Assembly: GCA_001574975.1 (NCBI GenBank)
Contig: KQ965732.1
Coordinates: 1,424,046-1,488,045 of the forward strand
DNA: 64,000 nucleotides
Source of the DNA: Gonapodya prolifera JEL478
Lineage: Eukaryota; Monoblepharomycota; Monoblepharidomycetes; Monoblepharidales; Gonapodyaceae
Direction of reading: 5' to 3'
The notes below the pieces were generated by a model. That model saw nothing but the letters and a program-made list of their open reading frames with translations. It made no database searches and was not told the origin of the DNA. This document shows positions 22,755 through 28,061 of this stretch, piece by piece; the stretch's first letter is position 1, and every line of letters begins with the position of its first letter. The position numbers and the translations under genes are program-made.

Positions 22755-24839
22755 TCACCCGCTGTACGGTCGGAAAATATCCATGCTACGTTTTGCGTCC
22801 CCCGACTTGCGCGCAGACGCAGCCGACGCGGCTTCCACGAAGCCTTCCGGCAGCTTCCCCAACTTTTTCTCACCCCACTTCTTGGGTCCCAGGAAACTGT
22901 TCTGTCCCCTCATAAAGTCATTCACGTGGCTGTTTTTCGGCCGAGACTCCTTCCCGTCCACGTCGTACCCAAACTCCTCCAGACTCGGCCGCTTGGCGCC
23001 GTTGGAGCTTGTGGAAGACCGCGGGGTGGGCTCGGATGTGGGATTGACCGGTTGGGGGCGAGTCTCGGCGGGCGTCTCCGACTCTGGTGTTGGCGAACGA
23101 AATACGATTCCCCCACCAGCCGAGGTTCTTGGTCGACTTGGGGAGGTATTGCGAGGTGTTGTTGGGGAGGCGGTAGGTGCAGGGGGGTTTGCGGGTGGAG
23201 TTGTGACTGCCGGTGTAGTCGGCGGAGAAGGGTTCGGGAGAGCCAATCTCAGCTCGGACGAGGGTGGGGAGTCGGTTGTGCCAGTTGGGGAAAGAGGTAG
23301 TGGATCCTGTGGTGTCTCCACAGGTGAAGCGATATCATGGGTGCGGGGCAAGGTTGCCGGGTCGATTGTGAGGTTGGGAACTCCCGGTGTAGGCTTCAAA
23401 TTGGGAACGATAGTTCCACTCGCTAGACGGGTAACGGCGGGGATGGACTCTCCACCAACTGCAGATGGGGCTGTTGACACTGCCGATGCAGAAAACGAGC
23501 CAGACAGGGACCGGGAGACGGATCCACTGGATCCACCGGACGCCGTAGAAATGGGCGACGGTGGCACCTTGCTGGTTTCGTCTTCACGGCCGAGATTCAA
23601 CCACGCCGCCGCCCTCGCGGCGCCTTCTTTCCCTACAGGCGACCCCACGACGGTCATGACCCGCTCGTACCGCTTCAGAGATCCCTCCAACTCCGCCGCG
23701 CACGCGCTGGCACTCGTGAGCACTTCCACGCGGTCCTGATTCCGCCTCATGATGCCGTTTACTTCCTCGAGCGCCTCCTGGCATCGCGCGGCGGCACTGT
23801 CGGCTGCCGACACAAGCCCGGCGTCCGGGGTCACATCCACGGCCCCGCGGGTCTCGATCGCGGCGCTGAGATCGGAAAGAGTCCTGATGAAGGGTTCAAG
23901 GGATGACGCCAGTTGCGCGAGCTGGATGACGGTGTCCCCCGAGGAGAGTTGCTGTGTTTGTTGGGTAGGCGACAAGGGCCAGTTCGGCGCGTCGGGCACG
24001 GTAGGGGATGTGACGTTGGACCCGGACCGCGACAGCGTCGGTTTGATCCCGCTGAACAAAACGCGGCTCGACGACGGCAGAGTGAGTGCCTCATTGGACT
24101 GGTGCTCGAACGCCGTGGCCAGCTTCTTGTCTGGTACAGTCGTCCACCCCTTGATGGTGGCAACGAGGGCGTCCCGGATGACGGAATCAATGTCCTGCCT
24201 GTGAATCGTCCGCTGGATCTCCTTCCATATGACTTTGGACTCGGCTAGTTTGTTGCGGAAACGCGGCTTGCATGACTCGAACGCCGCTGTCATCACCGCA
24301 ATGGCCGCCAGCGCCGACGCAGGTTGATTGTTGTTTACGATCGTGAGGAGGTGCAGGATTGCCAGTTTTGGTCTTTGCCGGGAGGTGGGGGGGGTACGTG
24401 GGATTGGTTGGGGTCGGGGGAGCTGTGAGCTTGGAGCTTCACCACAACGCAACCCCCGGCTCAACACCACTCACGCCTTATCGGCATTGGCATCAATCAG
24501 GGCGACGACCGCCAGCATGCGGTCCCAGTCGATATCGCCCGTGCGCGAGCGGTTCCCGACAACATTAGCTGAGGCCGCGTGAAGTTATTGTTTCCGTACC
24601 ACACCAGCGAGCAAGGCATCGCGTACCCCACGGGAAAAAACCGGTCGAGAAGGGTCAGTTTCGTCGCGGGCGGACGCACGAGCACGCACTCCGCCGCGCC
24701 ATCGCTGAGGCACATCCACCGACAACCCGCGGCACGACGGACGTCGGCTGCGGGGGTAGCAAGGTGACTCACTTATCAGGTCGCACAGCTCCTGGTCGCT
24801 CTCTGCGGTTCCCTTGCCCGTCCGCGTGAAGAAACTCAT
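22755..24839 (-). CDS. LSB5-like VHS + GAT domain protein (actin/endocytosis adaptor)
   Basis: Start ATG 24839-24837. Exon 1 encodes MSFFTRTGKGTAESDQELCDLI. Exon 2 (about 24566-24475) encodes SRTGDIDWDRMLAVVALIDA. A third exon runs to the stop at 22755. Joined, these form a VHS domain (PKLAILHLLTIVNNNQ ... SKVIWKEIQRTIHRQ). A GAT-type helical bundle follows (QLAQLASSLEPFIRTLSDLS ... CQEALEEVNGIMRRNQDRVE). The rest is Pro/Ser/Thr-rich and ends in a basic segment (LGPKKWGEKKLGKLPEGF). VHS-GAT without a GAE ear is the layout of fungal LSB5, which binds ubiquitin and Las17/WASP partners at endocytic sites. GGA and TOM1 are the alternatives; the lack of an ear argues against GGA. Length (about 620 residues) is greater than yeast LSB5 because of the disordered tail. 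Confidence 0.75.
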
Positions 24840-24955
24840 GCTGGGGGAGTGGGTGGGACGAGTTGATGTGGGTGAAATTCAACTGAGGCAAGAGGAGGCA
24901 AAGGCCGCAACAAACCCTGCATTTCCCAACAACCGAAAACCCCGCGCCGCCCCCA
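24840..24955. promoter_or_regulatory. Short bidirectional promoter, LSB5-like / histone H4
   Basis: Only 116 bases separate the start codons of two divergent genes. Both promoters and 5' leaders must overlap here or reach into the neighbouring coding sequence. No CCAAT or TATA box stands out. Confidence 0.5.
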
Positions 24956-25992
24956 ATGTCCTCCTCATCCTCGCAACAACCTCCGCCCCACCCCGTCGCA
25001 TCATCATCAAAAGCATCCCCCTCGTTCCTCCCCGGGCAATCTGCAGGCTCCGGCTCGCAATCGGGCATCCGCGGGTCTCCTCGACCACTCGACAATCCTC
25101 GCACGGGACGGACAGGGTTAGGGGTGGGTGGACCCGCGCCCGCGCCGTGGGCGAGGGGCGCGGGAGCTGGGGGTCGCGGGCTGGGAAAGGGAAAGGGAAA
25201 AGGCGTTGGTAAGCGGCATCGAAGGCAGCAGAGGGATACGATTCTGGGGATTTCGAACCCGGCGATTCGGAGGTGTGTATGGGGGGGTGTTTGGGAGTGT
25301 GGGTCTGGGTGCTGATGCGTGTTGTTAACCGTTGGCGGTGGGTGGGTTAGGTTGGCGAGACGTGGTGGTGAGTGGAAGGAAGGTGGTTTTTGACGACAGA
25401 AAGCTGCTTCTGATGACCTAGTCTTCTTCCTCTGTGTGCTTTCCTTGCGACGCAATGATTTGGCCCTTCCATGGGTTGATTGCTTTCTCCTCGTTCTGTG
25501 ACACTGCTGAAACACAAAAACCTCCACTTCGTCTGGCGTGACGCAACGAACCACCATGTTGTTCTCCAACTCCCTCTGTTTTCACCCTCTACCGCGTGAT
25601 GTCGGCTTTTCCCTGGACCTCTCCCTCCTGTGCCCAAACATCCTCCAACACCTATTGGTTCCCAATCACCAACGAAAACTTCCCTCGTTTGACAAACTCA
25701 AAACTCCTTTCACAACTACTGTATGACTATTTCCAAACATCGTTCCAACCTCGTTCAACACCCCACCATCCCGTCCGCCCATCACCAACGAAACACCCGC
25801 GCAGGCGTGAAACGTATCTCCAAAGGCATCTATGACGACATCCGCACGGTCCTCAAATCGTACCTGTCGGACGTGCTGCAGACGACCTGTTTGTACGTGG
25901 AACACAGGCGGGGCAAGACCGTAACGGCGCTGGACGTTGTGTACGCGCTCAAGTTCAGTAAGGGGCGGACGCTGTATGGGTTTGAGAAGTGA
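24956..25992 (+). CDS. Divergent histone H4 with long N-terminal extension
   Basis: Two exons, 24956-25274 and 25805-25992, separated by a 530-base intron. Together they make exactly 169 codons (168 residues). The 3' part of the intron (25621-25802) has no AG dinucleotide before the acceptor, which supports that splice site. The H4 core is plain: [43 protein letters not shown], then [20 protein letters not shown] and GRTLYGF. About 70 Ser/Pro/Gly-rich residues precede the H4 tail, with no later in-frame Met before the tail. With this splice, the usual LARRGG linker between AIRR and VKRIS is reduced to one Cys. Many core positions differ from the near-invariant H4 (for example QTTCLYVEH for RDAVTYTEH). 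Canonical H4 is 102-103 residues. This is more likely a specialised variant or a decaying copy than the main H4 gene. Confidence 0.82.
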
Positions 25993-26875
25993 TGTTGCGG
26001 GGTGGGGGGGGACGGGTGGGGGGCATGTCGGGGATATAGCGATATACCGGATGTTTTTTTTGATGTACATAGGGTACGCTTAAAAGAAGGGTAATCTACG
26101 ATGGCGTGGGAGGGAAAGATACACGACGATGCAGCGCTGTTCGAGTTTAAAGTGGTCCGTCTGACTAAATCATGTGGAGATGAGACGGAGGATGGTGCGG
26201 GTTGGATGGTGTCGAGGCACATGGGGCAGTTTGGGGGATGAAGTGAGGTGGATGTGTGCGTGTGCAGGGAAGGGGAACGTGGGAGACAGCGGGAGGTGAA
26301 ACGAGGGTTGAGGACGTGGTGGGCGTGCCGGTCAACAATTGAATCCTCGGAGCAGTGGGTGCTTTTCTGAGTCTTTGCCTTGGATATTTTGGAGAGTGTT
26401 GCATAAGCGTCGCGAGAGTGGGTTCGTCCAAAGAAAAACTTTGTCCATTGAAACCCCGAGGAGTGTAACCATCTGTGTTTTTGAGCAGCTTTCTCACTGC
26501 TTGGGTCGTGACTCACGACCTATCCGATATGCTAATCACTTTCCTCGAGGAAAAAGATCCACCAAAGCGCAACGTATGAATTGAGAAGCACAAAACCGCT
26601 ACCGCTCATCTCCTCCCTGCAACGCAAACCAACTCGCAGGAGGCTTCTTTGAACATTGACCAGACTTCGACAATTGAACAGTTTCTGGCTGACGACAACA
26701 GTACATCTCTTAATGCATAGCTCTGATTTCTTCTGGGCCAATCGAATGTCTTCCACACCCTTCTCTTGCAGTCAGGCCGGAGACTAAGCAAACCTTAGCC
26801 ATAAAAAGGCAGCACGCGACCCCAAATGGTCACAACATCAACACATCTTGTTTTTCTCCCGAAGGAAACACCAAC
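25993..26875. other. Intergenic region, no gene seen
   Basis: This stretch holds the H4 3' end and about 0.8 kb without a convincing gene. Short open frames on the minus strand (26165-26756) are Ser/Thr/Pro-rich with no recognisable motif and conflicting frames. No histone-type stem-loop is visible behind the H4 stop. Confidence 0.5.
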
Positions 26876-28061
26876 ATGGATCGCCCCATAATGGCGGGAA
26901 CGGGAGGAACGGGAGCTTTGAATACCGTCATTTCCGCAGCCCTGACCGCATTTTCCACGGGGCAGAACGCCATCACTTCTGCAGCGGAAATCGTCGCCGT
27001 TCCTACAGTTCCGAGCGTCGTCCTTTCCGCGGCGGAGAGCGTCGCCGTGTTTGCAGCGGAGAGCGCTTCTGCAGCCCAGACCATCATTTCTGCAGGACTC
27101 GATATTGCGGCAACTGCCGAAAGAGCGATGGCTACGACACTGGAAACTGTCGTAACAGCAGCAATAACTACGACAGCTGCGACAGCTGGGACTGCGTACT
27201 TATACAACATGGCCACGACAGAAGCGACTGGACCAAAAACTCCAGAGCCGATGCCGATAATCGCCATTGCCAAACAATCTAATCACTCTCCAAAAGGCCG
27301 ACTATGAGAAGTTCGTTGGAGGACCCGCGTGCAGCCCTAAAAGAGTTGTCGAGCGTGCCACCAGCTTCGCCAGCGACCTAAAGAACCAGGAGAAAGAGGT
27401 TGCTTTCCAGGGCGACAGGAAGCTCAAATTTCAGATAACAGATGCCGTTGTGTGTGAGGCTCTGGCAACAGAGGATGCTGCTGCAGAATTGCGTGCAGGC
27501 GTTCAGCAACTTGAAAGTGAGGTGACCCAGCTCATTCGCGACCCAAAGCACGCTCTCAAGCTGAATGTCTCCGTCACTCTTCCGGAGGGAGGTAGATTCA
27601 AAGAACTTGACGTTGGTACTGAGCTGCCCCGATTTGGTGGAAGTGACAACACTTCTGGGATGATGACCCAACGCACCCATGAACCTGGCGGAAATGGTCA
27701 ACTGGAAGGACGTCTCACTTCGCCTCCTCCTCGAAACAATTACCTTCTTGAAGGACAACGTAACACGAGCAGAAGTAGAACGCCTTGCGGAGCAGGTCGT
27801 AAAAAATTCTATTGCCGTCGTGGAATACTGTAGGCCTTTTGCAATCACACTCACAGTGAGTCATGTCAATATGGAAGCGATTGCGGTAAAGATCGAGGCC
27901 TCACCTTTGAGCAACCACCCACTCCCAGATTGTTGTTGCTGGCAATGTGACACTCTACGCGTTGCGTTGCTCAATGCAGATGATGGATATCTCAACAAGA
28001 AGGGCAAGGCTGCCCTAATGGGCGCCGGTGTTGGAGCTGGAATAATGACTGTGGGAGCGTG
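26876..28061 (+). CDS. Unrecognised multi-exon gene with Ala-rich and coiled-coil-like parts
   Basis: Three overlapping segments look coding. 26876-27307 encodes an Ala/Thr/Val-rich chain (VISAALTAFSTGQNAITSAA) that may form amphipathic or membrane-active helices. 27267-27610 encodes a charged helical stretch (ATEDAAAELRAGVQQLESEV). About 27718-28061 encodes DVSLRLLLETITFLKDNVTR and ends in GKAALMGAGVGAGIMTVGA. The last two join if GTTGGT near 27611 is a donor and GAAG|GAC near 27717 an acceptor, in phase 0. The join of the first to the second is not resolved, so these may be two genes. The last codons overlap a GTGAGT, so a further exon is possible. I recognise no family. Confidence 0.35.

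Follow-up and report, generated by a model that had tools for sequence, protein, structure and literature searches.

A histone H4 variant with a predicted 72-residue N-terminal extension, encoded beside four canonical H4 genes in the same genome

Variants of histone H4 are rare, and the function of the best-surveyed fungal one, H4E, is not known (PMC10878826). An H4-like gene with a long N-terminal extension raises the question of whether it encodes a functional H4 and, if so, of what kind. The window, a 64-kb stretch of DNA at the end of contig C2, was analyzed together with the rest of the genome (47.6 Mb, 207 contigs); the genome searches score best candidates only, and the gene counts given here are lower bounds. 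Judged from its sequence, the source is most likely a flagellated fungus. A multi-exon alpha-aminoadipate reductase gene on C8 was found as eight colinear pieces that cover, with gaps, model positions 1–1365 of 1390 (best E 2.8e-135). None of the pieces reaches the whole-protein cut-off by itself, and the family also gave a sub-cut-off signal in 12 of 14 prokaryote controls. The flagellar protein IFT57 was found on C16 as three colinear pieces (best E 1.3e-23; sub-cut-off signal in 3 of 14 controls).

Gene structure and H4 identity of the product

The H4-like gene lies on the + strand at 24956–25992. Its three exons (Table 1) join into a 522-nt frame that contains no stop or frameshift and encodes 173 amino acids, and both introns are of the GT-AG type. 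The spliced product across the microexon is ...AIRR-LARRG-GVKRIS..., with R-LARRG-G in frame. The original prediction had placed a single intron at 25275–25804, which joined exon 1 straight to 25805 and reduced the LARRGG linker to one residue. That two-exon model was rejected; there are two introns, and because the microexon between them encodes LARRG, the shortened entry to the histone fold was an error of the splice model. In mononucleotide shuffles of the 532 nt of 25273–25804, where any mini-exon that was flanked by AG and GT and 14, 17, or 20 nt long was counted, RLARRGG was matched at 7 of 7 residues in 0 of 20,000 shuffles and at 6 of 7 residues in two.

Table 1 Features of the H4 variant locus (positions in the window)
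Feature	Position	Strand	Description
VHS-like gene	22755-24839	-	Divergent from the variant; first exons 24497..24839
Exon 1	24956..25272	+	317 nt; Ser/Pro/Gly-rich extension (72 residues), then H4 tail; donor GTGTGT
Intron 1	25273..25350	+	78 nt, phase 2, in codon R36; GTGTGT...TTAG; TTAAC about 20 nt before 3′ end
Exon 2 (microexon)	25351..25367	+	17 nt, encodes LARRG; AG-GTTGGCGAGACGTGGTG-GTGAGT; identical to canonical linker
Intron 2	25368..25804	+	437 nt, phase 1, in codon G42; GTGAGT...GCAG
Exon 3	25805..25992	+	188 nt; remaining histone fold, ends GRTLYGFEK, stop
3′ flank of variant	25993..26800	+	Without the hairpin found on 14 canonical core-histone genes

The joined core of the variant matched 96 PDB sequences, with a best E of 3.1e-33 over query positions 6–104; the best 60 of the 96 were all named H4 (one was named H2A as well). 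Together with the translation of the joined exons, these matches bore out the presence of an H4-like gene at this position. By sequence, the predicted product has all elements of the H4 histone fold, from helix 1 through L1, helix 2, and L2 to helix 3, with a full linker. Against the general Histone model of Pfam (PF00125), the spliced variant scored 16.5 bits, below the cut-off of 26.4. The top-ranked model in that search, AbiEi_4 (E 0.0038, under its own cut-off), was taken as a chance match. The basic patch K16–K20 is present as KRHRR, with K20R, and it was found in the translation along with a second conserved block and GRTLYGF, all three of which had been predicted to be kept. Lysines K8, K10, K12, and K16 are present in the tail; K5 is lost. 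The whole histone fold, including LARRGGVKRIS, is common to the variant and the canonical H4 of its own genome. The variant differs from the latter by a one-residue insertion before GRTLYGF (RQ to FSK), which is accompanied by a C-terminal part 1 residue longer, and by its last two residues, which are EK instead of GG.

The neighboring gene on the − strand is VHS-like, with an E of 7.8e-7 for PF00790, just below the Pfam cut-off (29.5 vs. 29.8 bits; exons joined by eye). Because the two genes are divergent and their start codons are 116 bp apart, they may share a promoter.

Ahead of the H4 tail, the frame contains a single ATG, at 24956, and therefore 72 residues precede the H4-like tail; translation of this extension in full is our best reading of the sequence and agrees with the Ser/Pro/Gly-rich extension of approximately 70 residues originally predicted. 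Its open frame counts as weak coding evidence, because two more forward frames over the same stretch, where the DNA is GC-rich, are also long. Alternatively, the variant could be of nearly normal length, with the extension being a 5′ leader or spliced out upstream, much as the A. nidulans H4E tail is just 5 residues longer than that of canonical H4 (PMC10878826). Among the splice-like sites listed over 24830–25272 are donor-like sites at 24849, 24868, and 24872, and a near-normal-length product may arise by a poor upstream splice from donor 24872 to a purine-rich acceptor at 25190. However, the upstream donors lose the start codon or require purine-rich acceptors, and alternative 5′ ends were judged poor; no other in-frame ATG lies ahead of the tail, and the start codon of the divergent gene is very close. 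We consider a product of nearly normal length improbable and retain the full extension in the gene model.

Canonical H4 genes, introns, and the H4E family

A human H4 query gave 14 exon matches in the genome, which fall into five loci, one each on C150 and C32, two on C47, and one in the window. This check for canonical H4 copies elsewhere found four genes, all encoding one identical, ordinary H4 of 103 residues. The variant was the sole further H4 found, in one copy (a lower bound). An H3 match lay near each of the four canonical genes, and for three of these four the translated H3 sequence was read as well; no H3 match was found beside the variant in the genome search. On C47, an H4 gene with its H3 forms an inverted duplication (186401–187700 and 195701–197000), in which identity spans at least 1,091 bp ahead of the H4 start to 26 bp past the 3′ hairpin.

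The canonical introns follow 19, 84, and 224 coding nt, that is, codons 6, 27/28, and 74 (numbered without Met). None of these three positions is shared with the variant, whose introns fall in codons 36 (phase 2) and 42 (phase 1). By analogy, the non-shared introns fit a cDNA-derived duplicate with later intron gain, as proposed for H4E in PMC10878826.

H4E, or hH4v (hheA of Aspergillus nidulans; hH4v of Neurospora), is a fungal H4 variant encoded beside canonical genes. Its defining traits were taken to include a nuclear location, interaction with H3, and induction by nitrogen starvation. As described in PMC10878826, its introns are unlike those of canonical H4 and are interpreted as those of a cDNA-derived duplicate with new introns. 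The model H4E gene has the order phase 2, 29–32 nt, phase 1, 16 nt, phase 2, 88 nt, phase 0, and in Glomeromycota the H4E gene is interrupted by one intron only, of phase 0 (PMC10878826). The tails of H4E are Lys/Arg-poor, and in A. nidulans the N-tail is 5 residues and the C-terminus 7 residues longer than in canonical H4; no stable H4E tree is reported there (PMC10878826). The Neurospora variant is also mentioned, as of unknown function, in PMC6703697.

The variant could thus be a true member of the H4E family, an ancient fungal paralogue present in this lineage too. The two share the same plan: each is an extra fungal H4 with a conserved fold, a basic patch, a divergent and longer N-tail, and non-canonical introns, and each has a phase-2 then phase-1 pair of introns together with a tiny exon (16 nt in H4E, 17 nt in the variant). 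The comparison was made by published description, with phases and exon lengths only, and by it the variant order of 317 nt, phase 2, 17 nt, phase 1, 188 nt is not the H4E layout. The tiny exon runs from phase 1 to phase 2 in H4E but from phase 2 to phase 1 here. In addition, the N-tail is approximately 72 residues longer as opposed to 5 in A. nidulans, and the C-terminal part 1 residue longer as opposed to 7; the variant tail contains K8, K10, K12, and K16, whereas H4E tails are Lys/Arg-poor. H4E is reported only in Pezizomycotina, basal Taphrinomycotina, and Glomeromycota, and the main text of PMC10878826 makes no mention of chytrids or Blastocladiomycota. Because the intron order, Lys/Arg-poor tail, and longer C-terminus given in the description of H4E were not found in the variant, we did not file it as H4E, and we regard membership in that family as unlikely.

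Divergence from canonical H4 and selection

Over 83 aligned codons, the variant and the canonical H4 are identical at 56 residues (67%) and differ at 27, in keeping with the prediction that many core positions had changed. Left out of the 83 were the tail upstream of K16, the insertion stretch (RQ/FSK), and the last two residues (GG/EK), all of which also differ. The changes are K20R, I21Q, L22Q, N25T, Q27L, T30S, K31N, G48K, L49G, E52D, E53D, T54I, G56T, V60S, F61Y, E63S, N64D, I66L, R67Q, D68T, S69T, V70C, T71L, T73V, A76R, K77R, and R78G. By region, helix 2 has 17 of 28 positions substituted, helix 1 has 1 of 11, aligned helix 3 has 0 of 9, and the C-terminal block has 0 of 7. Three canonical H4s (that of this genome, one PDB sequence, and the human protein) differ among themselves at 8 sites, and the variant is changed at 6 of these (hypergeometric p 0.013).

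Differences at first, second, and third codon positions over the 83 codons numbered 22/19/58 relative to the C150 gene, 22/19/54 relative to C32, and 21/19/53 relative to C47, a third-position excess with a chi-square p of 6e-7. Fourfold sites differed at 23–24 of 32, and 36–38 of the 56 identical residues were encoded by a different codon. By the Nei-Gojobori method, dN was 0.316–0.318, and dS, which is near or at saturation, was 2.1 (C47), 3.0 (C32), or undefined (C150). A run of 16 residues, PAIRRLARRGGVKRIS, is unchanged, despite codon differences at most of the identical residues overall.

These sequence comparisons support long purifying selection with a changed helix 2 instead of decay. 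The prediction that the variant is under selection was supported by the intact three-exon frame, the dN of approximately 0.32 with dS near or at saturation, and the clustering of changes in helix 2; it is also backed by the changes at positions where canonical H4s themselves differ and by the presence of four canonical genes for the bulk load. Because dS is near or at saturation, the constraint may have lasted long but been relaxed recently. That the gene is a decaying, non-functional duplicate, as 67% identity over the aligned residues in one of the most conserved proteins and the lack of a relative in the pattern scans below might suggest, is very unlikely given 522 nt without stop or frameshift, good splice sites flanking the 17-nt exon, the third-position excess, and the unchanged 16-residue run despite mostly different codons at identical residues. 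The variant indicates where H4 can change under selection: mostly in helix 2, with the fold and most DNA-contact residues kept.

Relatives were sought by pattern-based scans of two collections, which reach close relatives only. A viral origin of the variant gained no support at that range: IMG/VR (viral contigs), scanned with six short peptide patterns taken from the one sequence, gave 72 pattern matches, none of them confirmed. In GTDB (prokaryote genomes) there were at least 592 pattern matches, and among the matches listed one was confirmed, which was no histone: this Microbispora stretch shares low-complexity residues only and contains a stop.

Histone 3′ hairpins and a possible replacement role

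The canonical histone genes end in a 3′ hairpin with a 6-bp GG...CC stem followed by ACC. The form GGAATT-N4-AATTCC-ACC had 12 exact matches in the genome, and the reversed control had none; 11 of the 12 accompany a gene for H3, H4, or H2A. The remaining match (C38:76334), approximately 10 kb from the H2A gene, is part of a 90-nt segment that duplicates an H2A 3′ UTR at 92% identity but lacks H2A coding sequence. The H2B form is GGTTTT...AAAACC-ACC, found once as an exact match with a 4-nt loop and twice with a 5-nt loop. The stem is thus A/T-rich and differs between H2B and the other histone genes. All 14 canonical core-histone genes found (four H4, four H3, three H2A, and three H2B, the H2B genes being named by eye from translations) carried a hairpin, although the 14 are not all independent, because some, such as the C47 pair and probably C54/C169, arose as recent copies. 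The hairpin-bearing loci are on C150, C32, C47, C54, C169, and C38.

A relaxed scan (6-bp GG-stem, loop of 3–5, ACC) gave no match on either strand of 60,624 bases from eight other loci. It gave one match on both strands of the window (128,000 bases), inside the neighboring gene region. No GG-stem hairpin with ACC was found near the variant on the + strand from 24900 to 27500. Rfam at the gathering threshold gave 0 matches in the window and 10 loci, and therefore the Rfam models do not recognize the histone hairpin. An SLBP RNA-binding domain is encoded on C10:314483–314863 in two pieces (best Pfam E 2.0e-12, above the cut-off), in keeping with the hairpins on the histone genes. The hairpin sequence suggests that this fungus has a histone 3′ stem-loop of the animal type. 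The early evolution of histone 3′ ends is reportedly the subject of work by Dávila López and Samuelsson from 2008.

Unlike the canonical set, the variant and two CENP-A-like genes (C18 and C25) are without the hairpin. The latter have a lengthened loop 1, and the C25 product had cnp1 as its best PDB match (E 3.3e-44) with ordinary H3 chains nearly equal (5.8e-44); the CENP-A label rests on these two features, the longer loop and the best match. An H2A.Z query of the genome returned the three H2A loci and no separate H2A.Z. Two further matches were set aside: a PF00125 match on C40, NF-YC-like by eye and without a hairpin, was excluded from the core-histone count, and the one sub-cut-off match to CENP-T_C in this genome is an H3-like relic, not an H4. 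On C101 (53775–54041, − strand), there is an intronless H3-like stretch with tail and fold in different frames and a GC content of 0.44 (0.50 in the window); it is a relic, possibly from a mobile element or virus.

Because the 3′ hairpin is absent, this motif argument suggests that the variant is made outside the replication-dependent histone program. It is reasonably likely, in our judgment, that the gene encodes a functional, single-copy replacement H4 with the histone fold and a 72-residue extension, which would be deposited independently of replication and pair with H3 in a minority of nucleosomes. The gene would be expressed outside the replication-dependent program, and the protein would act in the nucleus, pair with H3 (or a CENP-A-like H3), and enter that minority of nucleosomes as a replacement. 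A specialized role in sporulation, at the centromere, or in sperm-like packing, as originally suggested, is conceivable. R35, R36, R39, K44, R45, and K79, which we take to be DNA-contact residues in canonical nucleosomes, are kept in the variant, as are the KRHR patch and lysines 8, 12, and 16. With K20R, K31N, K77R, R78G, the loss of K5, and the 17 of 28 changes in helix 2, histone marks and contacts with chaperones or remodelers would differ at the changed positions, and the extension could offer a new docking or modification surface. More tentatively, the genome as a whole may divide its histones, as animals do, into a replication-dependent set (SLBP plus 3′ stem-loop) and a replacement set, the latter including an H4 that arose independently of H4E and uses its 72-residue tail for docking. 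The contrast between the variant and the stem-loop canonical histones of the same genome provides a concrete way to test whether a fungus deposits H4 independently of replication.

Divergent H4 proteins are known from other systems. Rozella is a flagellated lineage. R. allomycis, compared here by description only, belongs to a fungal lineage that diverged early and likewise has H4 paralogues that depart from the norm, but there all five diverge from the conserved H4 (PMC10878826), whereas here four are ordinary and one is divergent. CpBV-H4 of Cotesia plutellae bracovirus has a 38-residue N-terminal tail and has been likened to fungal H4Es; it differs in being a viral gene with a Lys-rich tail and high similarity to insect H4 (PMC10878826). 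Trypanosoma H4V, Oikopleura testis H4, and human H4G are lineage-specific H4 variants too, with no comparable N-terminal extension described in the text of PMC10878826 used here. In PMC4122937, the N-terminal extension belongs to a telomere protein, and the H4 paralogues are invariant. Neither this variant nor a 3′ stem-loop on the histone genes of a chytrid-like fungus is reported in the parts of PMC10878826, PMC6703697, and PMC4122937 drawn on here. By analogy, the variant would work like H4E but, with introns and tails of its own, is probably a separate invention.
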